The notes under the pieces are model-generated. The model had not been told where the DNA came from and did not search any database. It was given only the letters and a program-made list of their open reading frames with translations. DNA of 64,000 nucleotides, from NCBI GenBank assembly GCA_947561395.2, contig OX387192.1, forward strand, positions 37,841,520-37,905,519, in the 5' to 3' direction. Shown piece after piece: positions 265 to 61,600 of this stretch. Numbering within the stretch: the first letter of the stretch is position 1; every line of letters starts with the position of its first letter. Source of the stretch: Buxus sempervirens (lineage: Eukaryota > Streptophyta > Magnoliopsida > Buxales > Buxaceae). The position numbers and the translations under genes are program-made.

Positions 265-413
265 ACTAAGTCACTGACTGTAGCAGTATTCTTTCATCTA
301 TAGAATGTCTGATGATTTAATAATTGGTGCAGAAGGTAGTCACTATGATGTGGTAAATAAGACACTACGTTGTCTTGGCAATTAATACGTGCAAGTTATA
401 TCCATCTGTGCAG

Positions 414-792
414 ATATTTGGTGAGCCAAGGTTGCATTAAACCACTTTGTGATCTTCTAGTCTGCCCAGACCCAAGGATTGTGACTGTGTGCCTTGAGGG
501 CCTTGAGAACATTCTAAAGGTTGGTGAGGCTGACAAAGAGGCAGGAAAGAATGGTGGGGTCAATGTCTATGCTCAGATGCTCGACGAATGTGAGGGGTTG
601 GATAAGATTGAAAATCTACAGAGCCATGACAACAATGAGATTTATGAGAAGGCTGTGAAGATATTGGAGAGATACTGGGTGGAGGATGAGGATGAAGAGA
701 ATCTCCAAGACAGTGCAGAGGGCACTCATCAGGGTTTTGATTTTGGAACTAGCCAGCCAACTCTTCCTTCTGGTGGCTTCAAATTTGGCTGA
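414..792 (+). CDS. IMPA4: Importin subunit alpha, last exon only (gene continues left of the window)
   Basis: C-terminal 126 codons of an importin alpha, the adaptor that binds nuclear localisation signals and couples cargo to importin beta. The exon opens after an AG acceptor at 412-413 with one base left over from the previous codon, then reads YLVSQGCIKPLCDLLVCPD, the last armadillo repeats. It continues through LEGLENILKVGEADK, an ENLQSHDNNEIYEKAVKIL helix, an acidic stretch (WVEDEDEE) and a glycine-rich tail ending GGFKFG. The C-terminal helix and acidic patch belong to the region that CAS/CSE1 binds during recycling in this family. An in-frame TTG at 370 lies in the intron and is not the start. 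The isoform name is an inference: the gene sits next to an STR6 gene, as I recall IMPA4 does in Arabidopsis (At1g09270/At1g09280), and the GGFKFG ending fits. Family assignment is very secure; isoform is moderate. Confidence 0.93.
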
Positions 793-1760: not shown

Positions 1761-10606
<8,846 letters not shown>

Positions 10607-17043: not shown

Positions 17044-19965
17044 TTAAGCATAGCACACCTGAGAAGCCCTGACCCATTTGCCGTCAATCCAATCTTGATG
17101 AATTCTTAACTGAGAATGTCCAAACTCTAACTCCTCTTTGCTGTTCCTGAAATAGACTATGTATGTTGAGGCGCTAAGAACTTTGGAAATTACACCCACC
17201 CACCAACCATCATTGTACAGAGCATCAACTTCTTCAAGCAGATGGAAACTATCAACATGAATTTCAGGAGGAGAAGGCCTGATGTGCTGTGAATCTGCTT
17301 CTTCTCTCAGAAGCTTTGTCCCATCTTCTGTTTCCAAGGTCTGGTACTCCACCAAGAATTTGTCGTTTGCTATTGCTTCGATAATGATTGCAGTGAACCA
17401 AGCACCCTGGAAACCTTCTTCATCACTACTCACCTCTACCAGAGTCCCATTGCTAAACCTCACCTCTGATGTTTGCTTTATCTTCAATGTCCTTTTGTTA
17501 GACTTCAATTCTGCCATAGATGACTCACTCTGAGATTCAAGCTGGCCGGTATTGAGCATGCACATAAACCAGGATAATGAATGAGAGATATTATCAAAAT
17601 CATCTGAGATAAAGACATTATCTAGGAATCGCATTTATGGTTTGGAATTCTAATGAAATTTTGAACTTCTGGGAAGAACTAACTGGAAACTTTCAATTAT
17701 TAGTAAGAATAAATGGAAATCCTGAATTTGATCAACTTCTAATCTTGCTCAAACATTCAGTACATTCATAAAACTTTTATAATATTTCAGAGAAATATCA
17801 GAAATTCAAATCCTCAAAATACACAAAAAATAGAAGTGCAAAATGTCTTTAATATTCATTTAGATCCCATAGTACAAATTTTGAAAACCTTGCTGTGATT
17901 GGGCAAATTAATCTCCAGAAAATCAAGACTTTGCATGAAGTAGAAACTGAATAAAGGCATGTTAAACATGCCTTAATGTGCTTATTTCACATGATTTTGC
18001 GGATGCCCCCAGTTCTATCAGCTTCTGAGGGTTTATCTGTTCTATACTGGGAAATACAATGTCCCACCAAGTATGGTGCAATGCATTTGCATAAACAAAC
18101 ATTTCTTACTGCCATGGTAAAAACCTTGGGCTGCTCGCACAAAAATGTGGGTTCGAACCTCAGCATGCCAATTTACACATAAAAACGAAACAATAGGTTT
18201 GTTGTCAGTACACTCCTCGTATGACCTGCTTCATAGGATGTACATCAGGTTATAGTCCTTTTATTTGTATAAGCACATATATCAAAATCATCTTAGTTTT
18301 TCTTTAATGAAATTGTATATTCATTTAAGATGCAATAAACACCACAAAGAGAGGGCAGTATGCCATAAAAGAAGATGATAGAACATCGAAACCACCAACC
18401 AATGACATCAGCAGTGCAGCAAATACCATAGAGGCCAAAACAAGGACATGATAGGTTACCAATCATGACAAGAATACAATGCCAAAGTTAAGGAACCTAA
18501 GTCCAGAACTTAATGACTTCGCTCATTTCCATGTTTCATGCCCTTGGTGAGAGAATCTAGAAGAAAAATATCTGAAGTTATCCCTTAGTGAAGGTCTATT
18601 AGAAGAGTTAGCAAGATGTAGTGGAGCTGTGGAAATCGTTATCCAATAATTCCTCTGCAGTGGAATGCCCCAAGATTCTTTGAAAGACTGGCAAAACTTT
18701 GGTTCACATTAACTTGGTTAACATACATGATGAACTTAACTGGTTTCAAATCATGCCTTAGAAAAGACCAGGAATTAAAGTCCTGCACACTGTTTCTTAC
18801 ATCCAGTGTCTTTCTTTGAAGAGGAACATAACTACTCAATCATCCAACATTTTCTCTATATAACAAAAAATTTCTCACTGTTTATATCTGTTGGAAATTA
18901 GAGCATCTTTTTTCATCCCAAATCCTCTACTTTTCTCCATTAATTTCTATGTGCAGCATATGTATGGCTATCGCTGTACTAAAATACTTGTGGTAGTATG
19001 GGCTATCAGACATGGTATGGAAGGCTATCAATCCAAATCACTCAGCCTGTGACTTCCTTTTATTATGGGTGGCACACGAAACTGCACATAGACAATTGGA
19101 AAAAATGACTCAGTTGGGCTAGGTTTGAAAACAATGGTTTTACTCTCTAACCTTCTTTCCAGAATCTTTCAAATAGAGTAGTATGGTTTTTGGTCATTGA
19201 TATCCCATCACAACCATAAAATTGAATTTACCTCCCTTTTATTGGGATGTAACTGTTTCTCAGTGATTTTTTTTGGTTCAATGTTATTGGATAGTTGTCT
19301 AATTGGGTTCGATAGTTAAATGAATTGTGCTCATTATTTTCAAGTGAATTTTATTAAAAGGAATATAAAAATATATATATGACAGCACAATGGTAAATAA
19401 ATAAATCTATAAGTCACCACAGAGCAAGCGAGCGAGTGAGCGACTAAAGAGATAAATTTCATGATTTGACAAAAAAGAAATTAAAAAGAGATAAAGAGAG
19501 GTGAAGGCAATCAAGAAAAATAACTTCAGATATATACTCCTGCACCTGTTCTTCTAGTGGGGGAACCCAAGTCCCGTCCATCCACTCGCGATGAAGGCGC
19601 AGTTCGGATTGACTGAATTCAATTTGCTCCTTCGAAACTCTGAAGAACACCGAATATCTGGAATTTTCAAGAACCTCGGTGAGCACTCCTTCCCACCACC
19701 CATCATTGTGAAATGCGTCGACCTCTTCACTGAGTTTGAAGGTCCGGTTGATCTCTCGAGGCGGCCTGGGCCTAATATGGATCGCATCGATTGTCTCTCT
19801 CAATGGTTTTGAGCTACTTTCGTCCGCCACTAAGCTACTGTATTCGATGATTATCTTGTTCTTCTTCGACACCGGTCGGACGACTGTCGCTTCGTACCAC
19901 GCGCCCCTGAAGCCCTCATCCTCAGTGCTAACTTCAACATCGGCTCCTTTGCTGAAATGCGCCAT
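17044..19965 (-). CDS. Agenet (Tudor-like) domain protein, DUF724-related
   Basis: Two exons: 19965-19546 and 17541-17044, 305 aa. Exon 1 carries one Agenet pair (FSKGADVEVSTEDEGFRGAW, then FKLSEEVDAFHNDGWWEGVL and LRLHREWMDGTWV). Exon 2 carries a second, diverged pair (FSNGTLVEVSSDEEGFQGAW, LLEEVDALYNDGWWVGVI, LRIHQDWIDGKWV). Agenet domains belong to the Tudor/Royal superfamily; plant members bind modified histones or RNA-binding partners, and DUF724 proteins are implicated in nuclear, chromatin or transport roles. No DUF724 C-terminal domain is present, so this is a short form. ATG at 19965 is preferred over an upstream in-frame TTG. The acceptor for exon 2 could also lie 12 bases downstream at CTCAG|AGT without changing frame. 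CAG|GTGTGC just before the stop may be a real donor to a tiny terminal exon in the duplicated 3' flank (16309-16587). The single intron (2.0 kb) holds nothing recognisable. Confidence 0.85.
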
Positions 19966-33467: not shown

Positions 33468-34334
33468 GTGTGACCATGGTGGCATCCTCCCCCGCTATTG
33501 AATGTTCTATTTTAGCTATAGCTACCACGCATCCCCGCCTTAGTTGGGGCAAATGGACCGTCACCACAGCACCATGAATATGCAATGATCTTGCAGGGAC
33601 TTTGTTTGAGACCATTAGAGTGTGTGACCATGGTGGCATCCTCCCCCGCTATTGAATGTTCTAATTTAGCTATAGCTACTAGGGCTGGCAACGGGTCGAA
33701 TACGGTACGGATCTGTCATGATCCGAATCCGAACCGAAAATAAAAATCCGATATCCGAATTCGATCCGAAATCCGACGGATCTTTTATATGTGAATCCGA
33801 ATTCGAAACCGAATTTATATAATGTATCCGAATTCGAAATTCGACCGAATAAATAACCGAAATCCGAATTCGATCCGAATTAGATCCGATTTGAACTTAA
33901 AATTCAAAAGTTAAGTTTAACTATTAAAGCAAATTTTAATTATCAAAACTAATGAGCCATATAAATATTAAAGCAAGATATGAATAAGGATAGTTCAACC
34001 ATGGTTTATACAAAGTTTACCAATGATTTAATGAAAAGTATATGTTAATTTCGGTTCGGATCTTTTTCGGATCGGATATGGACAGATTCGGATTCGGATC
34101 CGAATTCGGTCGGATCCGAAATCCGATATCCGTATTCGAACCGCGGATCTATATTTTCGGATCGGATTCGGGATTTTCGGATCGGATTCGGGTCGGATTC
34201 GGATATATATCCGACCCATTGCCAGCCCTAATAGCTACCACGCATCCCCGCCTTAGTTGGGGCAAATGGACCGTCACCACAGCACCATGAATATGCAATG
34301 ATCTTGCAGGGACTTTGTTTGAGACCATTAGAGT
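33468..34334 (+). repeat. 154 bp tandem duplication, second copy split by a transposon
   Basis: Unit 1 is 33468-33621. Unit 2 begins at 33622, is interrupted at 33680-34230, and resumes after the insertion to end at 34334. Counting the 8 bp target duplication once, unit 2 is also 154 bp (58 + 96). The units are nearly identical, so both the duplication and the later insertion look fairly recent. Confidence 0.9.
33680..34230. mobile_element. hAT-type MITE, 551 bp, with exact 8 bp target-site duplication
   Basis: The element begins TAGGGCTGGCAACGGGTC and ends GACCCATTGCCAGCCCTA, imperfect terminal inverted repeats with an identical outer 12 bases. It is flanked on both sides by ATAGCTAC (33672-33679 and 34231-34238), an 8 bp duplication typical of hAT elements. 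The interior has no coding capacity but is packed with CCGAAT/ATTCGG-type motifs, mostly CCGAATTCGA on the left and TTCGGATCGG on the right, so the element can fold back. In hAT elements such subterminal repeats are transposase binding sites. The uninterrupted neighbouring repeat unit supplies the empty-site sequence, which makes the boundaries secure. Confidence 0.93.
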
Positions 34335-38100: not shown

Positions 38101-38943
38101 TTTATATATAAGCTAGGAATTTTAATAATTTACTTGCAACACATCTCTGTTCTAGAGATCGATCCCCAAGATTAATTAGTCCTCTGCCAAGTTGAGATCT
38201 GATCTGTTCGCCTCAAAGACAACCCTTTTAATTGATTGCATGGAGTGGATGGAAAACGGGTACCCCCAAACAAGTATGCATGATAAAAAAATATGTAACA
38301 TATAAATAAAATAAAAACTCTATTGCCGAGCTAGCCCGGCCCCGATTATCTTATTGATCTTATTTATTTTAGCTTCGTGGGTCTTACCTCTGTTGTTTCG
38401 ATCTCTGGGTTTTTTCATATCTAAGTATTCTTATTATATTATATTAAGAGGAAAGAAGAACTTAAAAGAGAATAAAATAAAATAAGAAAAATAAAGTAAG
38501 CTGATGATGGAAGGGTTCATTGGCGCTCTTCAGTAGCTCTATTTAATTGGTTCTTCGGTCTTGCATAGGCTAATTGGTCGGTCACCGCCTATTCAAATTC
38601 AGAAAGTGCTCCAATAAGATTTATATGGGGTGCTCGTATCAGAGATGTTCTGCTCTGATGCTCTTTGCTCTGGTTCTTTGTCGTAAGAGTCTTCGTAGAA
38701 TCGTAGTTATTGTTTTGTGGTTTCCATATAAAAAAATAAATGGTCAGTCACCCGGCGGCTACCATGCCGGACTGTACCTGCTGACGTCAGTAGCTTTGTG
38801 ACATTCTTTCTGGGCCTCAATCTGTCGCTGTCAAGCCCACCCGGGCAGCCCACTGGCCGTCCCAACCTCCTCTTCATAAGCCCGGGCAATCCCCTTTCTT
38901 ATCTTCTCACGCAACTCTCTCTCTCCCCCACACTCTCACTCCC

Positions 38944-39516
38944 ATGGGAGAGAGAGAGAAAAGCTTCCAAGCAGGAACGCAAGACTGCAGGTAAGAGAGG
39001 AAGATTAAATTCCGCGATTTGGCCTTTTTTCTTTTTTGGGGTATATATCTTAAGTGTACGTGCTTGATTTGCTGAGTTTCGTTACTGTCTAATACTCACT
39101 TGCCTACGATTAGAGCAAGAGCTCTCGATCTATAATACTGGGGATTAATTTCTGTAGAGTCTACTATAAACCCGATCGAGCAGTGATTTTCTCTAGATCG
39201 AGTAGCTCAGTTCTTTCAGGTCATACTCGATAGAACTTGCATGGAAAGCAGTACTACCTGTTCTATTAAAGGAAAAAAAATTTCTAAATTTCAATTAATT
39301 TGTTAGCAGGTAATTATCAACGTTTTTTTAGCTTTTAATCTTTATTGTAGGTATGGATTCCTCAACAACACCGTCGTCTCTACCGCTTCAACAATCGGAG
39401 TTCCTCGACAGAACCATGCTGTTTCTTCGAGACTTGGAGTTTCTTGCAGAATTGGGAGCAGCCTACAATTTGAAGCTGAAAGATTTTCGACAATATTGAT
39501 GGCTTGTTTGCCTTAA
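38944..39516 (+). CDS. Short spliced ORF of TAS3, ending 6 nt before the 5' miR390 site
   Basis: Exon 38944-38990 plus exon 39351-39516 gives 70 codons and a TAA at 39514-39516. It starts MGEREKSFQAGTQDCR and ends FSTILMACLP. The ATG at 38944 is the first in the predicted leader. The stop lies only six bases upstream of the miR390/AGO7 site. From memory, Arabidopsis TAS3 also has a short ORF whose stop falls just before this site, and ribosomes stall there against the AGO7-SGS3 complex; translation is thought to aid siRNA production. No protein family is recognisable, so position rather than sequence probably matters. The splice is a prediction and the frame depends on it. Confidence 0.6.
39354..39499 (+). 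CDS. Alternative 47-codon ORF of TAS3 in another frame
   Basis: An ATG four bases into the second exon opens a frame (MDSSTTPSSLPLQQSEF to LKLKDFRQY) that stops at TGA 39497-39499, 23 nt before the 5' miR390 site. It overlaps the spliced ORF in a different frame. It would be used if the upstream ATG is skipped or absent from the transcript. No known domain. Confidence 0.35.
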
Positions 39517-39522
39517 TCTGCT

Positions 39523-39543
39523 GGTGCTATCCTACCTGAGCTT
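39523..39543 (+). promoter_or_regulatory. 5' miR390 target site of TAS3 (non-cleavable)
   Basis: Contains GTGCTATCCTACCTGAGC. Against perfect complementarity to miR390 the site differs at three positions, two of them central: a G:U pair opposite miRNA nt 11 and an A:A mismatch opposite nt 10. Central mispairing explains why AGO7-miR390 binds here without cutting, as in other long-type TAS3 genes. Confidence 0.95.
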
Positions 39544-39601
39544 ATTCTACTTGCACCCCCTTCTCATAATCTCTTTTCCCTTTTTCTTAGTTCCTATAGT
39601 C

Positions 39602-39622
39602 TTCTTGACCTTGTAAGACCTT
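39602..39622 (+). ncRNA. tasiR-ARF, first copy (5'D8(+) position)
   Basis: 21 nt with core CTTGACCTTGTAAGACC, ending TT. The core is identical to conserved tasiR-ARF, which guides cleavage of ARF2, ARF3 and ARF4 mRNAs. Confidence 0.95.
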
Positions 39623-39643
39623 TTCTTGACCTTGTAAGACCTC
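39623..39643 (+). ncRNA. tasiR-ARF, second copy (5'D7(+) position)
   Basis: 21 nt with the same core, ending TC, directly abutting the first copy with no spacer. The pair therefore falls in a common 21-nt phase. Confidence 0.95.
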
Positions 39644-39759
39644 ATTCCAAAGTTACTATCTTTGCTTTCAGTGCCATGATAGATTATCTATCATAAGCTA
39701 TAGATAGTATCGTTGGAGATTAGCTTTCCCCACTCCCACCCCACTCATCTTTTACATCC

Positions 39760-39780
39760 CCGTCTATCCCTCCTGAGCTA
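39760..39780 (+). promoter_or_regulatory. 3' miR390 target site of TAS3 (cleaved; sets the siRNA phase)
   Basis: Contains CTATCCCTCCTGAGCT, a perfect match to miR390 nt 2-17; mismatches are confined to the 3' end of the miRNA and nt 1. The expected cut is between 39770 and 39771. Counting back seven 21-nt steps reaches 39624, one base from the second tasiR-ARF start (39623). Confidence 0.95.
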
Positions 39781-40377
39781 TTTGATTATCAAAGCCTGTT
39801 TCTCCCACTTGCGTTTTACTAATTATAAGAGAACAGCGTAGAGATTCTCGAAATTTCATACAACAAATGCTGGTTTGAACTCGGTTGTTACATCTTGCAC
39901 ATTCCTTCAATCGTGAAATGTAAAATTCTGGGGAAGAAATAGTAAGCATCAAATATAAGGAAATGCTGTAAAGGACAGTGAAAGCGTTAGAAAGACTCGT
40001 TTGGTCATCATTGATTATTCTTGTTGTCTCTGTTTCAGTTTCTGGCTTGTAGTGACTTGGATTTTCACTATATTATGTATGCAGAAATATGCTTTTGCAG
40101 GCATGGGTTTCGTTGTTTTATATGCTGTTAGCTCATAAATATGCTCGCAGTTCTGAAGGGTCTTCTCGTGACTACTCCAACGTACAAAAAACAATATATA
40201 CAATTTACTATCGGAATTAAATTCTCTATCTCCCTCGTCTTTCTCCTTTCTTGCTTTTCCCGTGGCACCTAACCTAACGTATTTAAGAAATCTTTACACG
40301 AGATTGATCAGTTTCTAAAAGTAGTTCTCCTGGTCTATCAAGCATTTTTTTCTGTGTCTTGTTTTTTGCGCCTGGGT

Positions 40378-44074: not shown

Positions 44075-45110
44075 GGGAAAATTATGGAAAATGGTCAACT
44101 TTTTAAAAATATTTATAAAAACAGTCCACTAAGATGTCTAATTACATAAAATGTCACTATTAAAAAATATTTGATCTGAATGATCACTTCTAAAACATAA
44201 TTAAAAAATAGTGTCATTTTCTTATAAACAACTTGTGTCCACGTATGATGCGTTCGTATCCCACGTAAAATGCCCTCGTGTCCTATATCAAAAGCTTGCG
44301 TCCCATGTACAATGAACTTTTGTCCCAATTAAAGCGATCCTCAAATTTTATTATTTTTGAAAAGTGAACCTATAATTTAATTTCAGTGGATTTTTATAAT
44401 TATCTTTTTTTTTTTTATGAATAATAATAATAGATTCATATGTAACTTAGATAAAAGGATATACCCATGAGAAGTGGGCACAAGACATAAGGATCAATCC
44501 TTGACACAAGGACTGTTTGCCAATATAGTAGCAAAAAGGAAAACCAAAACCCCAGAACCAATTAACCAGCTGAACACCAACCCCTTTAAATTCCTTCCCT
44601 AGCTATCGTAGTCCACTCACTAATTATCTCACCAGCTGATACTCCCTGAAAAAGTTTGTGCAAGGTCAAATATCTACCAGCATTAGATAGCACTTCCTCA
44701 ATCACCGCTTGGCTTGGCTTGTGATCCTCAAAAATACATTTGTTTCTAGCTTTCCAAATGTTCCATCCCATTGCAAAAAATACAGCCCAGTACATTGTTC
44801 TGCCTTTCTTCCCTAGAGCTGAAAACCTCCATTGGTAAACAAGATTGTCAAATTTTTTTGGCATCACTCACGACATTTGTATTAAGTCTAAGAAGTGACT
44901 CCAAATTTTTGAAGCAAATTTGCAGTGGATAAAGAGATTATCAACACTTTCTTTGTCTTGAAAACACAATACACATACCAATGGAGACCTACACATGTTC
45001 TTCCATCTACACATGTTATCAACAAAAGTGGCCTTTTTCTGTAATTTGACATCTTAGTGGATTGTTTTTATAAATATTTTTAAAAAGTAACCATTTTTCA
45101 TAATTTTCCT
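44075..45110. mobile_element. TIR-bounded element (MULE/MITE-like) carrying a LINE fragment
   Basis: Positions 44075-44157 and 45028-45110 are inverted copies of about 83 bp, roughly 85-90% alike; both contain GGAAAATTATG and TTTAAAAATATTTATAAAAA. Long TIRs starting with GGAAAATTATG-type sequence are typical of Mutator-like elements. I find no clean 9 bp target duplication, so the class is uncertain. The interior has no transposase. Its right half is a broken LINE in minus orientation. Confidence 0.65.
44404..45028 (-). pseudogene. LINE reverse-transcriptase C-terminal fragment (zf-RVT), disrupted
   Basis: Read on the minus strand from about 45028, the sequence gives a zf-RVT zinc-binding pattern, CVLCFQDKESVDNLFIHC, then KIWSHFLDLIQMS. 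An in-frame TGA near 44873 follows, then MMPKKFDNLVYQWRF, a WNIWKARNKCIFED block and a frame that closes at 44586. This is the conserved end of plant LINE ORF2. The poly-T at 44404-44417 on the plus strand is probably its poly(A) tail, and the 5' end is truncated at the right inverted repeat, as expected for a 5'-truncated LINE insertion. Confidence 0.85.
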
Positions 45111-45287: not shown

Positions 45288-48200
45288 TAGGAGGTTTAAT
45301 GTTTATCTACTCTTACATATGCCTGAGTTTATCTTAACATTTATTTGTCTATTTATATCTAGAGTGTTTGTGGTTGAGATCTTGTACAACCTTTATCTAC
45401 AATCTTATTTGCAGCTTTTCACAGGATTGTTTAAAAATTTACAAATATGCCATTCACAATACACATGGCATGATCTAAATGCAGGTTTCACATATGGTTG
45501 TAGATAAAGGTTGTACAGGATCTCAATTGGAGTGTCTGTGCACTGTATTTATCTTCCGTATGTATGTGATATACATAGTTATACCTTAACCTATCAGCTT
45601 AAGCTTTTAATAGTTGTTTAATGGTTTCATCATCTTCTATGTACTCGATGAAACATGGAGCACTCCAAGTAATATATACACATACGTATATAGGCATCAA
45701 TGTGTCAAGAAGACGTATGAATTATTAGAACCGGTAATAAAGTACTGCTCCGAGACTCCTATTAAATTGCCTATCAACCTCTCGCTCTTTCCCGACAAGG
45801 TTGTGTGTGGGGTTCAAGTCCCACTCTCTTAAGTTTATTCAGTTAAGCAAGAGGAATTTAATTTAATTAATTATATCGTCTTTAATCTTTATTTATGACA
45901 ATTTGGTATTTTTATTTTTATTTTTTCTCTCCGGTGGTTGGCAGTTGCATCTCTCTCTATATTCTTGTCATTATCAGAGGGACAGACGGTGTTTTGGTAT
46001 GATTGTCATTGTCGTTAATTTAAGGAGACGAAGCAAAGCAACACGGACAAAAAGATTGGATTCTCCCTTTTGGAAGAATACTTGCCGAGCTTTCGGCTTA
46101 ATTGAATCTTTCTATTAAAAGATGTGTAAAAAGGAATAATAGCTAGTCGCATTTTCACACGTAAAATGGGTCCGACTGCTATTTCAATTTTAATAAAAAT
46201 GGTATTTGAGACATGGAGTCCTAATTAATAAAAATGGTTGCGGGGGCTTGCATGATCAGTGACGTACACAGCATTGTTGTTATTCGTATCCATAATTGCT
46301 GCACGTTGCGCTTACAAATGATGCCAACTGGCAAGTAATGAAGCATACTTGGCCAACCATATCATACCTGCTTCTTATACTTTAAATGAGATTTGTGTCC
46401 AAACAATTTGAAAGGAAGTTATTGGCGTATACACATTTTTCGACTCTGCATTGTCTTTCTTGTTTGGTTCCATGACCAAATCTATCTTCTCATTATTCCA
46501 TATCAGCCAATTGGCATCGTACAAACAATCTGAGTCATTTAACTCAGTCCGAATCATCAACTTCAACTAAGCAAGATAGTTTGAATTTTTTACATTAGGA
46601 GACTGCATGCGCTATGTGCTAAGGGTCCATTTAGATAAACAGCTCACTCTAATAGATATCATGTCATTCTAAATAAGTAATTACAACGTGTTTAAATTTG
46701 AACGTGAGAAGAGCAGTAGTGATATATCGTTGATTGTTTTGTTTTGGGAGGACAATATTTGAAAGAAAAAAAAAGGGGACAGAATCTGATGGGGAATATT
46801 TCCTCTCTTCTCTTTTCTAATAGTATGGATTGAGCGAAAACAAAGTCCATGAGGCAAGCATGCCTGGAGTTTTACCAATCTTAATTTGCTAAAGTTTTTA
46901 GAGTAATACAAACGATGAAATATTAATATTTAGCTGTCTATTTGGGTATGTGTGCATATAAAATGGTAAAGGGGAAGCTAAATTTATTAGTATTTCATGG
47001 TCAAAGTTCCTTTAGTGTTTACTGTCAGCTTTGATACTAAAATTGAAGGGTATGAAGTTTTTGTTTATTAAAAATTTTTTTTTTATATATATGGCATCAG
47101 TCTATGACTCTATGTCAGTTTAAACTTCAAGGGAACTGTTTCAATCCGGAGGATCTGAAAACGTGTCAATCTCGTACCGACAAAACATGAAACCGATTTG
47201 ATCAAGGATGATATAAAAAATAAATAAAGAAATCTTATCTTAAGAGTATATACGAGGAAAGGATGGCCTGAAATCAACAACCTATGATCTAGCTGCTAAT
47301 GAAAGCGACTAGAAGACTGGGAGTGAGGTTGGAATCTCTTTGCTTTCTCTTCTTTCTTTCCTTTTTTTAATTTGAGGGCCGGCCTTGATCATAGAACTAT
47401 AGAAGCAAGTGTGATCTGCATGGGAAAGCAAACACCAAAAGTTTAGGGTCAACAGCCAATCGAATTTATGTTGTAATGGCTTTTGTTGGAGATTTGGTGG
47501 GTGATGGCGTGGTTCTCCATCCGATTCTTTCCTTCTGCATTGGACCATTTTCTCTTTTTAACTCTAAGATGGACATACGTGCTACCATCTTTATCTAAAG
47601 TATCCAAATAATAATGGTAAAAATAACAAAAGAATTCCTTGTAAACTCCACAAGATCTGTTTGAGATTCATTTCAAATTTGGAAGTGCTTGATCAGTTTG
47701 TTCATTTGGCAACTCCTTTCTTGATATGATGGATAACTCTCAAATACTCTTTTGACTAACTACCCCGTACCCACAAATAAAATATCTTCTAGAATGTTAA
47801 ATGACCCATATATCCTATATAGATAATTGCATAAATACAACTCTTTTTTAAATGCTTTTAAAGACCCCATATCATCTAAAATAACTATCCAGCCGTATCT
47901 TATATAGCCATTTGTGAAAGGGTGAAATTTTCTTGTATTTAAGAATTTGTTGAGTTAATTTTTTTATTGGTCCATTTGTTATGGCATATAGCCGGTATAT
48001 ACTTGCACACCCCATTACACTTACCTCCCTAGGAAGAGCATTTCAAAGGGGACCCACGGGCCTGCCAAATGGTAAAATTAAATTATTATCTATATAGAAC
48101 GCAAATTCAATGCAAAGCTAGTAGATATAGTATTTATAGAAGTAGTCAAATTCATTATTTTAGATCGATTTAATAAAGATGTATGTAAAGATTAAGAGAC

Positions 48201-48597: not shown

Positions 48598-50321
48598 ATG
48601 GTAGTAGCCCCTCCTAACCACCCAATTGGAACTGAAAAGTCCCAGGTTATGGGGATTCCGGTAATCGATCTTTCACTCAGGAGGTCCCATGTGTCGGACC
48701 TCATCATAAGAGCATGCGAAGAGTACGGTTTCTTCATGGTGATTAACCATGGAGTCCCCGAAGATGTTATCTCACGCATGGAAGATGAAGGGCTTCGCTT
48801 TTTTGCCAAACCAGAGTGGGAGAAACAGCTAGCCGGCCCAGCTTACCCTTTTGGTTATGGAAGCAAGAACATCGGCTTCAATGGTGACGAGGGTGTACTG
48901 GAATATCTTCTTCTTCACACTAATCCTCACTCTCTGGCTCAAGCTTCGAAATCCTTCTCCAATAATCAACCCGAATTCAGGTAACTGATTCCTGACGGAA
49001 AGCTTAACTTCACCTCCATGTTATATATCCCTTTACGTTGGATTCTGTACATTGTTTGATGATGAATTCTGCGTTCCTTAAGCAACTACAGGTTGGTCTT
49101 TTGTTGGTCCTTGCACCTAGTCTCTGCTGCTCACACGAGTTGCCCTGTAACAGTTGTTTTGGCTTCTTATCTTATCCTAGTTCTTTAAACGAGAGGGACT
49201 CATCTTTAACATAAGTACATTATTATAAGCAACAAGAATCGAATCTTGTGTTCTACAACAGAGCTTAACTGTCCCCAAGAACGTATGTAGCTCAATCATG
49301 GTCATCCTCTGTATCTTACAAGCAGTTACAGAGAATATCATTGACTAATGTAGGGAGGGAACAAAGAGAAGAAAAGAAAATGATGGTGATCAAATGGGTT
49401 TAAATTAGCTGAATATAGCTAATTTTATACTAAATCAGCCGGAAATTAAAGATTACAGGATAACCCACAAAAGAAAAGGGTGAAGGAGAAGTGAAAAGGA
49501 TAAGGGAGAATGACGCGGATGATGGTATATATTCTTTCTTACACTTGAATTATTTCTGGTGTGTGTGTTGGCAGCTGTACTGTGAATGATTACATAGGAG
49601 CGGTTAGAGAGTTAGCTTGTGAGATTCTGGATTTGATGGCAGAGGGTCTGTGGGTATCTGACAAGACGGTGTTCAGTAGGCTGATCAGAGATGTGGAAAG
49701 TGACTCACTTCTCAGGCTCAATCATTATCCTCAACATCATCACTGTCACAATAACAATAGGATCGGATTTGGGGAGCATTCCGATCCTCAGATACTATCC
49801 ATCTTGCGATCCAATGAAGTGGGAGGCCTTCAGATATCCTTGAAAGATGGAGTCTGGGTCCCTGTTCCTCCCGACCCCACCTCCTTCTGCGTTAACGTTG
49901 GCGATGCTTTACAGGTGAGTCTGTGTAATCCTCCCTTTTGATTCTAAATCTTATATATAGGGCCATGGGCAAGGCTATATTCTTGTTGGATATATTTGTT
50001 TGTCAAATCAATTAAAGTAAAGTTGCTAACTGCAATGTTGGTATTGGTTTGGGGAATTTGAAGGCTTTAACCAATGGGAGGTTTGTGAGCGTGAGGCACA
50101 GGGCCTTGGCGGACCCATTCAAGTGTAGGCTGTCAATGGTGTACTTTGGGGCTCCACCACTGCATGCATGCATCTCTCCTCTTCAAGAAATGGTCACACC
50201 CCTGCAACCCTGTCTCTATAGGCCCTTCACTTGGGCCGAGTACAAGCGAACTGCGTATTCTCTACGTTTGGGAGACCGTCGTCTCGATCTCTTCAGTACA
50301 AATTTGTCCGATAAGAGTTAA
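48598..50321 (+). CDS. GA2ox: Gibberellin 2-oxidase (2-oxoglutarate/Fe(II) dioxygenase)
   Basis: Three exons (48598-48980, 49575-49914, 50064-50321), 326 aa, in frame. The enzyme 2-beta-hydroxylates bioactive gibberellins or their precursors, inactivating them in the cytosol. Visible features: the N-terminal dioxygenase core (IPVIDLSLRR, EEYGFFMVINHGVP); the Fe-binding H196 and D198 in GFGEHSDPQILSILRSN, a GA2ox hallmark; the third ligand H253 in NGRFVSVRHRAL; and the 2OG-binding R263 and S265 in RLSMVYFGAP. No catalytic residue is missing. The intron positions match the usual GA2ox pattern. ATG 48598 is preferred: an in-frame opening upstream runs through the leader, but homology starts at VMGIPVIDL. 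Similarity to the C19-type enzymes (GA2ox1/2 group) is my inference; paralogue number cannot be fixed by eye. Confidence 0.93.
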
Positions 50322-52524
50322 AAGAGGATAGAAGAGAAAAAAAAAAAAACCAAAAAAGAGGGGGAAATAAAGTCCTCGATCCCCGCTTGTGGAGAGAGCA
50401 CAAAAATCCAAGATGTTGTACATATTAAAGGTTGATCTTTCACGTCTGAGGATGGGGAGGTCTCTTCAGTAATTCTGCTTTTCGTCTAATTTCAGAAGGG
50501 TGCTTGATTGGATTGAGTGTAAGGGCAATGGCAAAACCATGTTAGGATGCCTTGCCTGTTTGCTTGTACTTTGTGCTAGTTAAGAAGAAGAAGAAGAAGA
50601 TAGTTGAGGTTCAATTTGGGATAGATGCATGTAAAATGTGTGTACAATATATTGTGGGGAGATTCTTTGTAACACTTGTCGTATTTGTAATCAACAATAG
50701 TAAAAAAAGGAAATTCTTTCTTTATGCTTGGCATATATATATGTATGTGGTTGAATGAAGTTAATTGAATCATGGTTGGCAAACCAATAGTTGTTCAATC
50801 GACCAGCCGATGCCTTGTCAATTCAGAAAACTTTTCAAAACGATGTTAGTTGGGAAACGCCAAACTCCTTGTATTCAGTGTGCTATTTGCCTGTTTAGAG
50901 ATTGCCAATATTTAACAACCAGATTACTTTTTTTATTCTTTGATTATTTTGCTGGTAATTTGGATAATACGCACAGTTGGGTTCAATCTAAAAGAATCAT
51001 CCAGGGCAGCCATAAAAAAATATTGAGTTTGTATGAATTGTTTCCTTAATTTGAGGTGTATTATAGGTCTTTCAAATATGGTTAGGAATAGAATTTCAAA
51101 TCTATTAGGTTCATATATGTTAAGAGTATCTTAATAGGTTTCTTTTAGTTGTAGGTTTTTAAGAGGTCAATATAATGGGTAGAGGAGATCACAACTCTGG
51201 TAAGGGAGTTAATATTATCAAGTTTTAGTTCTTCTTTAGCTTGTGACAAGGTTTCTTGTGCTGGAGAGCACCGTGACAGTTCGTGCGAAGATTGATCAGC
51301 CAAAATAGCACGAAAAAAGGAAAAGGCACACGAAAGGGTGGTTCAACGCTCATTGACTCAGATTGAAGGAGCTTAGATGGCCAACCCATCCAAAACTTAG
51401 AGGGCACGAATGTGATGAAAGAGGTCCATCTCTAAAAAATATTGCTCACAGGGGTAGTTGAGGATCAGTTTTCTGTTTACGTGCAGATATATATAGACGG
51501 AAGAAACGAGCTTCTTGGTATCCGAGTCTCAATCCAAGCAAGATGGCTTCATTAATGTTGTTCTTGGAAGCTATAATGAGAAGGCATCACTACGGTCGTC
51601 TGGTGATTGATGGATGTATGGAGAGCCAAAATGACGATTGCACTAATGCGAGAAAAGGAGAGGGAAATACAACGATCACGACAACCTTTGTCTCCGGCGA
51701 ACGCCAACATGGCTGCACTGGTGTCTCTGTTAGCAAAGGAGATGAACCCGAGACATGGAAAATAGCTGACTATTGCATGTGGCCATAGCTGCTGCCGACT
51801 CGACCTTCATCCTTTGTGGTATAGTAATAGAAGTTGCATTTTTCCCTTTTTAGGAACAAGATCACATCGAACAAATCACAAAATTTGGTGCAGGGATTTG
51901 TAACAGACTATTTCAAGCAGGTTACTGAAGGGATTCCCCATACTCGGTGGAGTCTCCGTTGGTAAACTTTTATGGTCTTTCACACTCTACACTTCTATCC
52001 AGATCAAATTAAAGCTAAATCATTGTTGGCCATTTATGTTTTAGTACATGTTTGCGACCTCATGAATTGGATCCAAGAGCAATTCGAATGGTCTGTCTGG
52101 TATGAGAAATTAGGACATTCAAGAAGTTTTGGATTTAGATTGAATTATACAAATTCAGTGAGCTTGTATTCTAACCCCTTTATTGTCCACATATGGGCTA
52201 TTAAGGTAAATGGTTGCGCTAGCAGTAGCCCCCAGTCGGTAATATTTCTGGCTTCCCAAAAACAACAGCATCAGCTATTAAAATTCATCAACTATTTTCA
52301 TTAATAATAATAACCTGTTGATGAAAAAATTAATAATATACAGACATGATGGGTTAGATACACACACCTCCCTGGACTTAGAAGGGTTACATCTCTCATT
52401 TTTTCAGGTCCAGCATGCTTTTCAATCTGTGCTATATATTCTTCACACGTTTGTGTCTGTACAGTATAGAAGGTATCGTTAGACCTTCAAATGAATGGAT
52501 ATCTTGTATAATATTACAGTCTTG
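50322..52524. other. Convergent region between GA2ox and invertase
   Basis: Holds the 3' UTRs of both genes: GA2ox to about 50760, including an AAG microsatellite near 50583, and invertase from about 52350. It also holds the doubtful small ORF at 51543. The rest shows no repeat or RNA gene. Confidence 0.5.
51543..51788 (+). CDS. Possible small protein of 81 aa, no family recognised
   Basis: ATG-initiated frame MASLMLFLEAIMRRHHYGRL ending KIADYCMWP. An ATATATATAG element at 51487-51495 lies about 48 bp upstream, a workable TATA-to-ATG distance for a short leader. The protein has four cysteines, no clear signal peptide and no domain that I recognise. It could equally be a chance opening. Confidence 0.25.
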   Translation: MASLMLFLEAIMRRHHYGRLVIDGCMESQNDDCTNARKGEGNTTITTTFVSGERQHGCTGVSVSKGDEPETWKIADYCMWP

Positions 52525-55500
52525 TTACACGAGGATCTGAGATTTGGCGGCACCACGAGAGCATTTTTTCCGCCCAGTTTTGCTTAGTGCACAAACACAG
52601 ATCTCAAGAAGTTCATAGTCCTCCTCCCAGAACAGCATTGATGCCTTCTCTGGATTCTCCAAAAGTATTTTTGATGTTAGGAACCCAGCAATTGTCCATG
52701 TCTGCAGAAGCCGCGCTTGCTTCCCAATGAATCTCCCACTTCGGGTATCATAATATTCGGGCCACCGTTCCGCAGGAAGCCTCTCCTCAGCTAAAGCAAC
52801 AGCCTTTCTAGCTAATTCTGGTCTACCCATTTTTATGCAAGCCAACGTGAACTGGAATATAATGAAGATCAGATAGAATATTAGAGAAGTCACTCTTAAG
52901 CTTCAGATGTAAAAGATAGGAATCTGACATGCATGGGTTTTTATGACTGCATGTTTGATGGGACTACCCATTTATATCCTATGCCAAAAAATGTTGAAGA
53001 AAGGGTTGTATATATCTCAAGACATGAAGATTATTTTTTTTGTAAATCCACCATATTCTTGTAAATCCACCATATTCTTCCACTTTGAATTCAGGGCAAC
53101 AGATGGAGTGGCAATGACTAATTGATTTCAAAGATTTGGCTTATGAGATTTGCTTCTACATCAAAAGGTGGTTCAGATCATGCTGCCTTGGGTAAGCTAG
53201 AATACTAAAAGCCAAATCAAAGCATACCTGCCATAAGAGAGTTGGCCAAGATCCGCCATTATGATATGACCAAGGGCTGCCATAGTCAAACACGTTAACA
53301 AAAATTTAGCTTCTACTATCTGACTAAGAAATTTCAAATCAAAATCTAGCCATAACATATTAAGGATAAGTCAAACCAAGATCATACACGTGAATGCAGC
53401 TTTAGCATGAATACAGTTCAGGGTGGCAATAACAAATTTTATTGTCCACGGTACTTCAAAAGCAACAAATACTAAATAATTTAATATTATTTAAAACGAT
53501 TGTTACACTTAACAAGTATTTACTTTCTTGATACTAGATTTTAAATGCTAGAAGAATTTTATATTACGACCTAAAGGTCGTGGGTTCAAGTCACAGGAAA
53601 CAACCTCTTTGCTTGTGGAGGAAAGACTGTGTACTTCAGATCCTCCCCAGACACCACAAAGTGGCTGGAGCCTCGAGTACTGGGCTAGCTCTTTTTAGTG
53701 GGTTTTGGAATTGAAATTATCTTGGCAAGTTTGTATGGGCATTTTAATGGAACTTTTATTGTGTCTTGGATAATAGTTTGGTCAAAATATTTTTGGTATG
53801 TTCATCATTTAGAAATCATGAGAGTTCTATCATGGAGTGAGCAGAGATAAATTTCGATGATCATCCTTTTCAGTTTCAACTAGAAAAGAAAAGGGATAGT
53901 TACAAAAAGTAGTATTTTTTATAATATAAATTCTCACTATTTTTCTTGGAAATGTTTTGTAATGACCAAACCCAGCGAGGTACTGTCCGTTTTAGGCCTC
54001 AGCCCGTACAGTTTTGTCCTTAAAAGGCTCCTCGCTTGGTTAAATGTTCTCCCTGACTCTTATACCATATCGGGTATTCATCCATTTCCAATGTGGGATC
54101 GGGATATCACATGTTCTATTGATTTAGAATCCTTGATGTGGAACATCAAATAAAAAGTGGATCCCACACTATTTTCTCCATTTTTTTCAAAAAATTTTCT
54201 AATCATTTAAAATATATCAAATATAATATCTAAATTAAACTCCATAAAAAAAGTTGATCCTAATCGTATGGTAATTATATAAAAATAAAAGGACCCTTTA
54301 ATAAGAAAATGACACATAAAAATTTTGACATAAAGATATATCTATAAAATGACAATACGAACTCCAGCTGATATAATATTATTTAAAAAACTAAGAATTG
54401 TTTTTTCTTTTTCTTTTTTTTTTTTAAATCTCATATTTTAGGTGGATAACGATGTAAAAGTAAATATCCAAAATGTAAAAGCATAAAAAGCTTAAAAGTT
54501 GCTAAGAAAACTCACGTATTCTTCGGGTCACTGCCGGTGATTATACGCCACTCTTCACCCTCTAAAGCAGGATAACATATCTTAAGAGGCATCTGCCCCA
54601 CAAGATCATCCCATTTGGCTTCAATTAAATCCAGAATACCCTTGCTGTGTTTTGGAGTACCCAAAGATGAAATGATAGCCCAAAGGTTTCCAAGCATAAA
54701 GAACCTGAAATCCATGTGAGCTGGCTGTAGATTGCCAATAAGGTAACCACCTTTCTCTGGAATCCAATCAACTAGCCATGCAGGAATTTGTTCGGGATAG
54801 ATATTGAACTTGTTAATAGCATCAGTTGAGTATTCCTCTGTTTTGTATCGATAAATCTCATTGATTTTCTTCATATCTACCCAGTAATACTCTCTGATGT
54901 GAAATGACAATGCACTAAGTCTGTTATTGATTGCCATCACCAAATTTTTGGATCCATCATTGATGGTGAGCATCTCACGAGAGCACCTTAGTGCTGAGTA
55001 AAATAATGCCTGCGAAATTGAGTTGGTTAGATGGCAAACCACAGATGAGGAATTGCAAAAAATGTAGAAACCAAGACAGAAAAACTATGCAAATGACAGA
55101 CCTTTGTCAATGTGCGAATTATTCTTTTATTTAAACCAAACATTTAAAATAAAAAGATACACAAAAATAGATTACCTTATCATCAATTCTGAAAAAAAAA
55201 ATTTTTTTTTCTTATTTTAATACATCAACATTATGCTGTTACCATAATTCTAATTTTGATACAGCTAGTCTAGTCCTAGCTCATAGACATTTAGATTACA
55301 AGTACATACATATTGGTGGATGAGCACTGTCCTCTGATCGGCATGTAGATGTATGTTGTCAACCTACAGCGGCACAATCTGACAAGGTGATTTTTTATCT
55401 CAAAATCTTCCTATTAAGGGGCTATGCCGATAGCAACCTTCCAACTAATCAGTTATTGATGCAATTATGAAATTAGACACATCAGGCTTAAATTTCAGAC

Positions 55501-58500
55501 AGATTTCCAGAGAGACCATATAGTCAATGTATAAATTCCTGCGAAAAGCTTCCCAGGTCCTTTCACAATTGTGATTTGCATAGGTGAAATCGTCAGAAGT
55601 GGGATCCATTTTGTATGCCATCTTTTTGAAATGGAAACACACATCGACAGATTCCTTTTCCACTTGTAGAAGTGAATTCATTTTCAACTCATAAATTTGA
55701 AATAAAGTACTCAAAAATTTTAATAAACATCAAAGAATTCTTGAGGTAGCCGGACACAAGTAGACAGATGCACACATGCATAAAAGAAATTAATAAATTT
55801 AGAAGAATGTGAAGGTAGACCGAGTCACAAATTTCCAATAAAAAATAAAGGACAATTACATGGATATAATATGCTAGGCATGGACACACTTAAAATTTAA
55901 AAGTTCAAGACTACAAAATAATTAATTTCAAAGTCTTGCTCTATGATTATGGGAAGCCGCCATTTAACATTCTTTACAGCCTACCAAATTTCACTATTTG
56001 TCTCTTCAATATACAAGCTTCCACAAGTTTAAAGTCTAACTTTGCAATACCCAATATGCAAATGAAATATCTAAAATCATGAAAGACCAGCCACCAACTA
56101 AGCTACAGAAAACAAGAAGCTAGATGTGTAGAACAGCTGAAAATGTGAAGTAATAACCAACAATAAAGGACAAACAATTCATCATCCAAAGAAAGAAAAA
56201 AATGCAAGACAATAATGAACCAAGTTCCAAGGGCAGTAATGCTGCCCCTAAATCTTCTCATCTAGAACTTGCATTACATGGACAAAACAGAACCACAGAA
56301 ATCAAATGAATTCAATATCTTATTGGTGAAATTCAACTTACTTGGATTTCAAGGGGGTGACCATGAATTCCCATTCGACGGTCAATCATACAGGAGCCAT
56401 CAGTGACTAAAAGAGACGGGAACATATCAAATCCATCAGTTAGACACAAATTCAGTATCAGTTTTATGCCTGTCTGTACGTCCACCCTTTCTTGCAATGC
56501 ATAGTCACCAGTGATTTTCCCATAAGCTCTCAACAAGATAATCCACCACAATCCTAAATACAAAGCAACATTTTTTTAGAGCTTGTTTGATTGATTAAAT
56601 CGAATAATGAAAGAAGTTGAAGAAAATCATCTCATCAATGATGACAGATGGGACAAGAGCTATAAATGAGCTGAGCCAACTCAGCCAAGCCAAAACGAGT
56701 TAAGCTTCCCAACAAGGCACAGGCTTGTAATCCTTGAGTGAGTTTCAGTTTCGGCTAGCACTCATTAAATTCTTTTGGGCTCAGGCTCAACATTAGATGA
56801 TTAATATTTTTTTGGGCTCAGGCTCTACTTTTCGAAGCTCAGCTAAGTCCCTAATGCGGTTGAACCACAAATGCAGTTAGAAATCTACAAAATCCATGAG
56901 TTGAGAATACATAAATTTAAAATCTATAAAAAAAACATTTATTATTTTTAAGAGCCAAAAATATTTTTAAATTTATACTTTTAATAAAGTAACCAGACCC
57001 TAATATTTTTTTTAGTTTTTCATGATATAAGATTTTTAATTTTGATAAATTAACCAAGCTGAGGTTTGAAAAACAGTTGAGCCCACCTAAGCTCAGTCAA
57101 GGTTTGATGCGAAAAAAAAACCTCAGAGCCAGTTCATTGGTGGCCCTAGATTTGATGTTAAAAAAAAAAAGTCCCGGCTGAGTAAATATCATAGAAATCT
57201 TCATTTCAAAGAAATAACTAATTAACAACTACTACCATATATAAAGTAATAATAAACATACCAGAATCAACAGGAGCAACACGTCCAATAGCCGACTCGC
57301 CAAAGTCTGGATCTAAAACTTCCTCAACTGCTCCACTACTGCCATCTAGAGGTACAGTCCGAACCTTGAAACTTGCTGGCATCAACCCTTGCCCTGGGCT
57401 GTAGCAATCAACTGTTTTCTCCCAACTCTAAGTAACAAATACGATAACTTTTAATAAAACTCTATATGTGTCAGCTATGAAAAAAGAAACACATTGTGCA
57501 AACACCATGATCAAATTGAATGTTTAGACACAATTTACTGAAATTAGCATAAGTGATTTACTCAAAATGGGAAAAAGAAATTCCTATTTTCCGTAAGAGG
57601 ACAACAAAATGACAAAATGATCATAATAAGATTCATGATCCATTTAACAGAAGTATATATCAAATTCAGTTTCAGAATAGCCAAAAAGATTTGTTAATTG
57701 GCACTGCAAAGGACATTCCCATTCACAGAAACTCCACAAATGATTTACGATGCAGAAAATAAAGAAAAAATAATAGCACGTTTTTTGGCAAAATATGCAG
57801 GCCAAAGGGAAAAATGATACTGATCTGGAAAATGAGTAAACACTAGGACAGTGGATCACCTGTAATTGCAACGTATGAAGGAGAAAATTCCTAACAATCT
57901 CCCCCTCTCCATTAAGTAAGAAGGCAAGTGCCGACGGCACAAAATCACGAATAAAGACCTGATCATAATTGAGTGGAAGCTTGTCTCCGGGGTCATTTGC
58001 CGCTACAGTCCCCACTGGACTCCCACAGTAATTCACCACTGCGCTTCTCAGCAGCCTCCATGCCTCCTTTTCAATCTCTGTCTCCTCTCTCTTTGGGATC
58101 GAAACCTCGGCCTCTGTCAAACCCTCCGAGTAATCTATTTTTACATTTGAACCAGTAACTTCCACTCTCGGCTGTTCTTCTTCTATCACTTTGTCCGAAC
58201 CTGAATCAATTCTCTCGATCACCAAAGGCTTCACGTTCATTCCACTCTGAACGTAAATCCTCTCGAAGCTATTCTCATTAACACGAGGCTCGACGGAGGT
58301 GGAATGATGCCGAACATCTGACGCGACATTTGTTACGACACAGGCATTCCTACCTCTACCAACATTACAGAAACTCGAGAAAACCCTAGATTGGCCCAAA
58401 TTTGAATCAGGAACTCCAAAATATCTCCGATTCGAATCACTTATGCTTCTAAACCCTAGGATTCGAGGAGGAGAGCGATGGAATTTACGGTCCTGGACGA

Positions 58501-58648
58501 ATCTAGACCGAGAATTCGACAAACCATCAATGACGGACTGGCGGCATTTCGGGGGTGGGAATCCAAAGAAAGCAGAGCTTCTGCAACCAATTAGGATTCT
58601 ACAACAGGGTTTCATGGTCGAAATTCCCAAGTAACTGCGCGTACTCAT
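52525..58648 (-). CDS. Alkaline/neutral invertase (GH100), organelle-targeted type
   Basis: Six exons in frame, 678 aa: 58648-57860, 57427-57262, 56553-56342, 55009-54516, 53276-53228, 52851-52525. It hydrolyses sucrose to glucose and fructose at neutral to alkaline pH. The first roughly 200 residues are Arg/Ser-rich ([20 protein letters not shown], many R and S, few acidic residues at the start), as in the mitochondrial or plastid A/N-Inv group (InvA/InvC); cytosolic forms lack this. The GH100 core follows: [120 protein letters not shown] and [19 protein letters not shown] typical Cys/Lys-rich tail ([19 protein letters not shown]) closes it. A second ATG 11 codons in (MKPCC) is an alternative start. 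The core is complete with no disruption. Confidence 0.95.
53042..53079 (+). repeat. Two 19 bp tandem units in an invertase intron
   Basis: GTAAATCCACCATATTCTT occurs twice in a row, in the last invertase intron. Confidence 0.9.
53567..53697 (+). mobile_element. Au-like SINE fragment in an invertase intron
   Basis: AAGGTCGTGGGTTCAAGTC contains a B-box. It is followed by AGGAAACAACCTCTTTGC, CTCCCCAGACACCACAAAG, GAGCCTCGAGTACTGGG and a T-rich end. That order matches the tRNA-derived Au SINE family found widely in plants. The 5' end with the A-box seems lost. Confidence 0.7.
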
Positions 58649-61600
58649 ACAGAAGAAGCGAAACTAGGACGAAAATTTTCAAATCTTGGTCGATTTTCCG
58701 AAATGGAATCTATCCCCGTATATACAGCTCTGTTTGTCTTAAAAAAAATTTGTAAAACAGAGATCTAATGAATTGAGAGTTGAGATCAATTGCAGAAAAA
58801 ATGAACAAGAATTGAAGTTTTCGTCTACCTGCAGCGAAATGGATCTGGTCGAAGGGTTTGAAAGAGACACGACGTCGTAAATAGTACTTTTAAGGGAGAG
58901 GGTTTTCGGATTACTTTATAGGCGGAGAGCGGCAGAAGTTTCATTCTTGATATTGGATGATGAGAGAAACGATGGCCGCGGAAATGCGAATTTTTCGTGA
59001 AATTACACAACTACCCTTGAACGTTAAGGATAATTCCCTTAAATGTAACGTCATTAGCGCTGCAATGTGTGGTCAAAAGCAAGCATTTGGTCTCAATTTT
59101 GATCCTTGCCAACTGATTCGAACCGACAAATTCCCTCCAACAAAGCGCAGCAGGGCACTGAATGATAATCTGTAACTGAGATGAGGGCATTATTGTCTGA
59201 TAGATTCCGCGTAACGACGGACGAGTCCAGCGGCCCGTTGCGAGAAATCGCAAATGTCGGTTGGTCAGTTGAAGAAAGGAAAACGTGCGGGAGAAGTCCT
59301 TTTTTATTTTTAGTTTTTAGTTTTTCCTGACAAATATCTATTTGCGATAAAATAAAAATAAAAAATCTGCTAAACGAGAGGCTATTTTTACTTTGTCGCG
59401 AGAAGTGTACGAATTCATTCAAGTTTCCACGTATTATGCAGCAACCGTTAGATGTTATCACGTATAACATCCAACGGCTCATTTCACATCTTTCAATGAG
59501 ATGCCCCATAATGGGAAGGAGGGAGAAAGCGATATCTGGCATGTGCGTGACGCGTGACGCAGAGAGAGAAAAGGAGATAGTGCCAACGACGTGGCATATG
59601 CTTTCTTATCCGCAATTTTATAAGTTGCAAGTACGGCTCCTGCAATCCCATCGTTGCTTCTAACGTTAAGCGACTGCCACGCGTCAACGCTAAGACAAAG
59701 TAGTTTGTCGTCGAATCTCTTCAGCACTTTTTCGTGTTAATCGGAACTAACATGTGAAATGTGCAGGAACGTTATGACACGTGGAAATACACCGTTGGTC
59801 GAGACAAGAGAAATTTCAGAAAGCGAGGAAATCATTTCGCATGTGAAAAGAAGAAGTCGTATCGTTTACGTTCGAAAAAACAAATACATGGAAAACGACG
59901 CCGCCGCGTTTAAGCAAAAGCGAGTCCATTCAAACTTCAATTGCAGTGTGCCCCACGAGACACGAGGTTGATGAGACAGGGGTGTACAACGGGCCGTGAC
60001 GTCCAGGGCCCAGACATGTACGGCCCGTTATAGAAATCCGCCGCACATCACATACATAGAAAGGATCGGGCCAGAAAGGTTCGGCCGAGAGCCGCTACTA
60101 TTCGGCTCGCCATGCCATGTTCGGCCTTTATTAGGTGGCCCATAAGTGGCCGGACATTCAAATGGTTGGAGTCTTGGAGAGGTGTGACTGGTCTAACTTT
60201 TAAACTGTAGGCCGTTGGAACAGCCGCTATACACAAGTTGAAGAGCACAAATCAACGACTTAGCCATGGTAGTACCAGTAAGGAAGAAATTAAAACGGGA
60301 GCTGCGTCTGAAGCAATGCTCAAGGACGCAAAATAAACAGCGGGCGGGAGAGTGTCAAAAGTCCACCTTGACGGAATGACGGTATAAAAAAATTATTCAA
60401 CAAAACTTCTGTTCGTAATTCTTAGGCGTTGATATAGATAGTGTTATGGTTCTTCAAGATCTGTATATCCCCCAAAATGCCCTCCAAAAAATTGTAAAAA
60501 AATAAAAGCTGGACAATACTTTAAACTGAAGGGGCTGTGGATTTTTCAAGACTAGTGTGAACTGTGTAGAGAAGAGGACAAGAAACTGGAAACCCGGAAA
60601 ACTTTTGACACAGGTTGCTCTTCCGTTCTTTGTTTTTAGATTTGTCTTTTAGGATAGCCGTTTTAATTGCGTCCTGAAGTAATGTGAGGGGGGGAAAGAA
60701 TAAGGAAAAGGAAACCATATATGAATCATTTGTATATGTGCATTATCTTCTATCGTCATTTCAGATTTGAGGCTTCTCAACCTTAAAACACAATCTTACA
60801 CCAAATGGAAATGTGAACAGTTAAAAATAGATATATATAGAGTGTCTTACGCAACTTGCACAGCTAGCAGTTAGGATAGATTGACTTATCATAAAGCAGA
60901 AGCTGCAGCCTCACGTTTGTCAAGAAATTAAGTATGCACTTTGTGAATTGTTTGAAAGCCGCAGTTATCTAAGCCGTGATACCAATGAGTCATTTACTTG
61001 CATCTTTGAAATCGTTGGGATTGTGTGGACTCTGGAGAGCACGGAAGCCGTAGTAAGTCCAAGATCTTTATTACGTACGAGCAGTCGAGCACTATCTAAT
61101 ACTGGATTCAGATTTCCACCACCGAGGGCGAGGAGACTAATGCAGTTATCTGAACTTGGCTAAGAAACAAGAATAGCCAATCATATCCAACATATGTCGT
61201 TTCCTCTAATGGAACGCTAACATGAGCACTAAGTAGCCTTATTTGTTGCGGGTGGGGAAGATACTCTGGACATATGTATATGGTTATTGGTTAGGCTTCA
61301 GAATTCAAGGGTCGACGATGACACATTGGGTGGCATTCACCGTCATCTCAACAACGTGTGGGCGAGCGGCTTCCAAGTCCCTGAGTGGCCCTCATCGTTA
61401 TATCTCTTGTCATACATTCGTTCAACCAACCCTTCACGCAAGCAATGTTTTTGGCTTTTGGCTTTTGGTACGAAACGGCAAGAAGAGAGAAGAGAAGGGC
61501 ACTGATTGGGACGATAACATGTACCCAATGAAGTCGTTATAAAATCAAAGACGATCGAATTAGGTCAGGTCCGTCCGTCGGCATTATGGACCCACCCAAG

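Follow-up and report, generated by a model that had tools for sequence, protein, structure and literature searches.

A probable long-type TAS3 gene in an intergenic region of the Buxus sempervirens genome

TAS3 genes make small RNAs that silence auxin-response genes. Can such a gene be recognised from its sequence where no protein gene is visible, and can its likely trigger and targets be found in the same genome? The locus that raises this question lies at 39523-39780 on the plus strand of the window, by which we mean the whole stretch of 64,000 nucleotides analysed here, part of contig C15 of the 676.5-Mb genome of Buxus sempervirens. An initial annotation had claimed the full TAS3 order for it: a 5' miR390 site with central mismatches, two abutting tasiR-ARFs of the long type and a 3' miR390 site matching nucleotides 2-17 of the miRNA. 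All of these elements are present where they were claimed to be (Table 1). We are highly confident that the locus is a functional long-type TAS3 gene, that is, one with two tasiR-ARFs. This reading is based on the order, the spacing, the pairing pattern, the matching MIR390 genes, the ARF targets that lie in frame and a syntenic but diverged copy on contig C22. The sequence-level TAS3 features that we looked for were found, with phasing near, not exactly in, register, and from them we infer expression, cutting and siRNA production. The locus is ordinary and real: it is one of four TAS3 loci in the genome, and the TAS3 family is already known.

Table 1. Features of the TAS3 locus and its surroundings, and the other TAS3 loci of the genome. 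Positions without a contig name are those of the window.
Feature	Position	Strand	Remarks
SANT/DMAP1 (SWC4-type) domain	~26.63-26.76 kb	minus	Pfam; ~13 kb upstream of TAS3
Promoter- or start-like block (CTTCATAAGCC...)	38872-38900	+	transcription probably starts nearby
Possible intron	38991-39309	+	GTAAGAG donor at 38991; acceptor AG at 39308-39309 or 39349-39350; placed by eye
Short frame, 48 codons + stop	39353-39499	+	stops 23 nt upstream of the 5' miR390 site
5' miR390 site	39523-39543	+	3 mismatches to the miR390 complement; centrally mismatched
tasiR-ARF copy 1	39602-39622	+	pairs with six sites in four ARF genes, scores 0.5-2.5
tasiR-ARF copy 2	39623-39643	+	same six ARF sites, scores 1.5-2.5
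3' miR390 site	39760-39780	+	nt 2-17 paired; predicted cut 39770/39771
Downstream block conserved in C15 and C22	39991-40185	+	143/195 positions; blastn match
zf-RVT match below curated cut-off	44901-45044	minus	likely retroelement remnant
2OG-Fe(II) dioxygenase domains	~48.65-49.92 kb	+	Pfam; named GA2-oxidase in the initial annotation
Alkaline/neutral invertase domain	~57.85-58.06 kb	minus	Pfam
Long-type TAS3	C22:29765085	+	two tasiR-ARFs
One-tasi TAS3 (L028)	C6, 5' site 50246084-50246104	minus	core AAGGCC
One-tasi TAS3 (L040)	C8:1449191-1449401	minus	core AAGTCC; site starts 190 nt apart

Layout and surroundings of the locus

Two sites complementary to miR390, on one strand and with starts 237 nt apart, flank the siRNA region. 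The miR390 sequence used here agrees with the Rfam MIR390 consensus. In the 5' site, miRNA nucleotides 1-9 are paired, nucleotide 10 is mismatched, nucleotides 11 and 19 form G:U pairs and the rest are paired. The central mismatch leads us to predict a site that is bound and not cut, as described for the 5' miR390 site of Arabidopsis TAS3 (PMC6572396). The 3' site is unpaired at nucleotides 1 and 18-21, which makes five mismatches in the whole, and its pairing spans the cleavage position. Between the sites, the two tasiR-ARF copies are identical at 20 of 21 letters and have the core AAGACC. The spacer that separates the tasiR-ARFs from the 3' site contains, at 39678-39707, a perfect palindrome of 15 bases, GATAGATTATCTATC and then CTATAGATAG, which is not kept in C22.

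The initial annotation expected a 21-nt ladder running from the 3' cut with peaks at 39602 and 39623. The tasiR-ARFs do start at these positions, which are 169 and 148 nt from the predicted cut, at distances identical to those in C22. These are 8x21+1 and 7x21+1, so that the positions expected of a strict ladder are 39603 and 39624. In other words, 39602 and 39623 are probably right as products, though not exactly in the strict ladder, and a one-base drift in dicing would be the simplest account of the 1-nt offset. At the one-tasi loci, the distance from start to 3' cut is 8x21+2 on C6 and 6x21-1 on C8.

Other parts of a transcript can be proposed with the help of the C22 copy. The promoter- or start-like block is kept at 21 of 29 positions, versus 43 of 110 upstream of it. 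Within the possible intron 107 of 319 positions are identical, and in the adjoining block at 39305-39320 13 of 16 are. The downstream block, which may belong to the transcript as its 3' part, is better kept than its flanks and has no Rfam gathering-level match; a DNA search of the genome with it reported no second copy, and even the C22 one was unlisted. Across the entire window, an Rfam scan gave zero gathering-level matches. A weak match to SNORA64 at 38914-39050 (21.2 bits against a threshold of 35, E 0.56) was taken as chance.

The locus had been placed between SWC4 and GA2ox, with no protein gene visible there. A six-frame Pfam search of 29.0-48.3 kb, of a kind that would miss very short exons and genes without a Pfam domain, found no domain save the sub-threshold zf-RVT near 45 kb. 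The SWC4-type domain is not directly adjacent to the locus. The expectation that a protein-based annotation would miss the locus holds for Pfam. Further away, at 19759-19947, the minus strand encodes an Agenet domain.

Related loci, trigger and targets in the same genome

Comparison with the C22 locus separates the TAS3 elements from the sequence around them. Between the two copies, 20/21 positions are kept in the 5' site, 40/42 in the tasi pair and 18/21 in the 3' site (16/16 over nucleotides 2-17), versus 28/58 and 62/116 in the spacers; in terms of identity, the sites and tasiR-ARFs stand at 86-95% and the spacers at 48-53%. The ORF has kept 65 of 147 positions, and the stretch from the ORF stop to the 5' site (17 of 23) is better kept than its surroundings. 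We interpret this pattern as pointing to selection on exactly the TAS3 elements, and the pair shows the parts of a TAS3 gene being held while the remainder drifted. The two regions are also collinear. After TAS3, seven blastn matches at window positions 49571-58677 follow in equal order and orientation in the stretches L024 and L025. Matches at 46732-46788 and, inverted, at 33678-34233 are out of order in C22, and those at ~45.4 kb belong to a repeat present in L032 and L040 too. On C6 no collinearity was found, as 50 kb of C6 stretches gave one 36-base blastn match to the window (L029). At the C8 locus, the 5' site (1449381-1449401) is paired in its centre, with nucleotide 17 alone unpaired, and both C8 sites, this one included, may be cut.

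The likely trigger is encoded in the same genome. The exact miR390 21-mer occurs at three loci, all of which pass the gathering score of Rfam RF00689 (107.5, 87.9 and 81.3 bits versus 77). Two of these MIR390 genes stand in tandem on C3, at 60619429 (L038) and 60624213 (L039), 4.8 kb apart. Thirteen places in the genome lie within three mismatches of miR390 (control 4+2), comprising the three MIR390 genes, three opposite hairpin arms, five TAS3 sites, C10:70098 and C14:32323359.

The targets can be identified in a similar way. Within three mismatches of the tasiR-ARF complement there are 76 places; a reversed-pattern control gave 36+36, so most of the three-mismatch places are attributable to chance. 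Thirteen places have at most two mismatches: four in the long TAS3 loci, one in the C6 locus, six in ARF genes, and L035 and L036. Among the six target candidates (L031-L036, 10-kb loci), four have an ARF ancillary domain (Pfam ARF_AD) above cut-off. In these four ARF genes the target site falls within a long frame reading VLQGQE; two of them carry two sites ~200 nt apart and two carry one, giving six sites in total, and nucleotides 1-12 of tasiR-ARF copy 1 are paired at each. The tasiR-ARFs are therefore complementary to the genome's own ARF genes, whose silencing we predict. The two-site and one-site genes resemble litchi ARF3/4 and ARF2, respectively, which are described as two-site and one-site genes (PMC6451834). 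The other two candidates were rejected as ARF targets. L035 (C1:2019506) reads KVLQGQE in a 37-codon frame and has no Pfam match in the three forward frames over ~1-5700, and is perhaps an ARF fragment; L036 does not encode VLQGQE. Of the 63 three-mismatch places C8:1449306 alone was examined, and others, for example C11:33902578, may be real targets.

Could the layout be a chance resemblance, or belong to some other miR390-related locus that makes no tasiR-ARFs? By its whole-site count of five mismatches, the 3' site merely equals the best of 200 Markov-1 random windows, and to that extent such a reading has something in its favour. What makes this site unlikely by chance is its 16 unbroken matches, not the mismatch count: by our own arithmetic, ~3e-5 such cases are expected per window on both strands. 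The other elements stand out more directly. In 100 dinucleotide shuffles of the window, matches to the tasi core averaged 0.01 versus two in the window itself, and miR390-site matches with at most three mismatches averaged 0.00 versus one. On the plus strand of the 200 random windows, no miR390 site had fewer than five mismatches, versus three in the real window, and the mismatches of a tandem tasi pair never summed to less than 13, versus zero. Counter to coincidence, the four elements in their combined order had no comparable case in shuffles or random windows, they are conserved in C22, and matching ARF targets and MIR390 genes are present in the genome. We consider this explanation hardly credible.

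Alternatively, the C15 locus may be a silent or decaying copy that inherited its layout and lost transcription or processing, with the C22, C6 and C8 loci doing the work. Arguing for this case, its 3' site has lost the pairing at nucleotide 1 that C22 retains, and its 5' site has an additional G:U pair at nucleotide 19. Counter to this, the C15 and C22 copies have since their separation diverged to 34-53% identity in the spacers, ORF and intron, whereas the sites and tasiR-ARFs have been preserved. Such selective conservation is not expected of a dead copy unless its death was recent, and we judge decay to be quite improbable, if less so than coincidence. We thus retain the reading of a functional long-type TAS3 gene, against which the 1-nt offset of the tasi starts and the unpaired ends of the 3' site can be set. 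It places a regulatory gene that is invisible to protein-domain searches in one genome with its likely trigger and targets, and a specialist would be unsurprised by any of these findings.

A short reading frame before the 5' site

TAS transcripts of Arabidopsis are reported to contain short ORFs that are covered by ribosomes and end at the miRNA site (eLife 2016, PMC5207768), and importance is ascribed there to the stalling of ribosomes close to the 5' miR390 site (PMC8860578). Deletion of the ribosome-bound regions is described as leaving fewer TAS3 siRNAs and transcripts and raising miR390 cutting per transcript, which suggests that ribosomes there restrain cutting (PMC12127299). The short frame of the C15 locus, which the initial annotation had left unmentioned, resembles these ORFs in ending just before the trigger site; unlike in Arabidopsis, where ribosome binding was shown (PMC5207768), in C15 the likeness is one of frame position.

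All four TAS3 loci have a frame whose stop falls inside the 5' site or close to it. In C22, an ATG that is homologous by alignment opens a 40-codon frame ending 24 nt before the site; a second, overlapping frame of 49 codons starts at an earlier ATG and stops 4 nt short of the site, which counts against a simple story. The frames of C6 and C8 (61 and 69 codons) stop at a TGA within the miR390 complement itself. When upstream sequence of the same composition was randomised, frames of at least 40 codons ending inside the site or at most 30 nt from it arose in 5% of 5000 trials for C15 and, with 2000 trials each, in 12% for C22, 16% for C6 and 11% for C8. Given that these thresholds were chosen after the loci had been seen, and that C15 and C22 are of common ancestry, the presence of the frame at four of four loci is suggestive only.

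The possibility of a conserved TAS3 peptide was rejected for now, because the C15 and C22 peptides align with an E value of 0.50, a protein search of the genome with the 48-codon peptide found its own copy alone, and this peptide has no Pfam match. Since the two peptides are identical at 14 of 47 positions, it would be the position rather than the peptide that is kept. Selection at these loci might then fix where the frame ends, at the 5' miR390 site or immediately upstream of it, and let the peptide drift; the miRNA site would have a second role as a stop codon, holding ribosomes at the position of AGO7-miR390. We put this forward tentatively, as an idea that may well prove wrong. The four frames nevertheless offer a simple test of ribosome positioning outside Arabidopsis.

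Proposed pathway and comparison with known TAS3 systems

If the locus works as its layout suggests, the plus-strand transcript would carry in turn the short ORF, the centrally mismatched 5' site, the tandem tasiR-ARFs and the 3' site with its pairing across the point of cleavage. AGO7-miR390 would bind both sites and cut only the 3' one, and ribosomes on the short ORF would finish just 5' of the 5' site, leaving the remaining transcript free. SGS3/RDR6 would turn the cleaved RNA into double strand, and DCL4 would dice it leftward from the cut in ~21-nt steps, of which the seventh and eighth would release the tasiR-ARFs. By silencing ARF2/3/4-type genes encoded in this genome, these would shape auxin responses. 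The AGO7/miR390, SGS3/RDR6 and DCL4 steps are taken over from the known pathway.

TAS3 conservation is reported to extend to all land plants, and sRNAanno, a resource on 143 plant species, to hold 232 TAS3 genes (PMC7917102). Within this family, the short type shares the dual miR390 sites, and the C6 and C8 loci, with one tasiR-ARF each, look short-type. Unlike them, the C15 locus has two tasiR-ARFs and a different core, in keeping with the report that one-tasi and two-tasi loci differ in core consensus (Krasnikova et al., PMC3835848).

The closest likeness is to Arabidopsis TAS3a and the olive TAS3 contigs, in which two adjacent, near-identical 21-nt tasiARFs likewise lie between dual miR390 sites and the ARF3/4-type targets have two sites each (PMC3225373). 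The olive tasiARFs are described as homologous to Arabidopsis 5'D7(+) and 5'D8(+), and TAS3 genes as sharing no sequence outside the tasiARF region (PMC3225373). Our cross-species comparison is made with these published descriptions, and on that basis the C15 locus shows no difference of kind from long-type TAS3 genes, its spacers being unshared just as the olive paper has it (PMC3225373).
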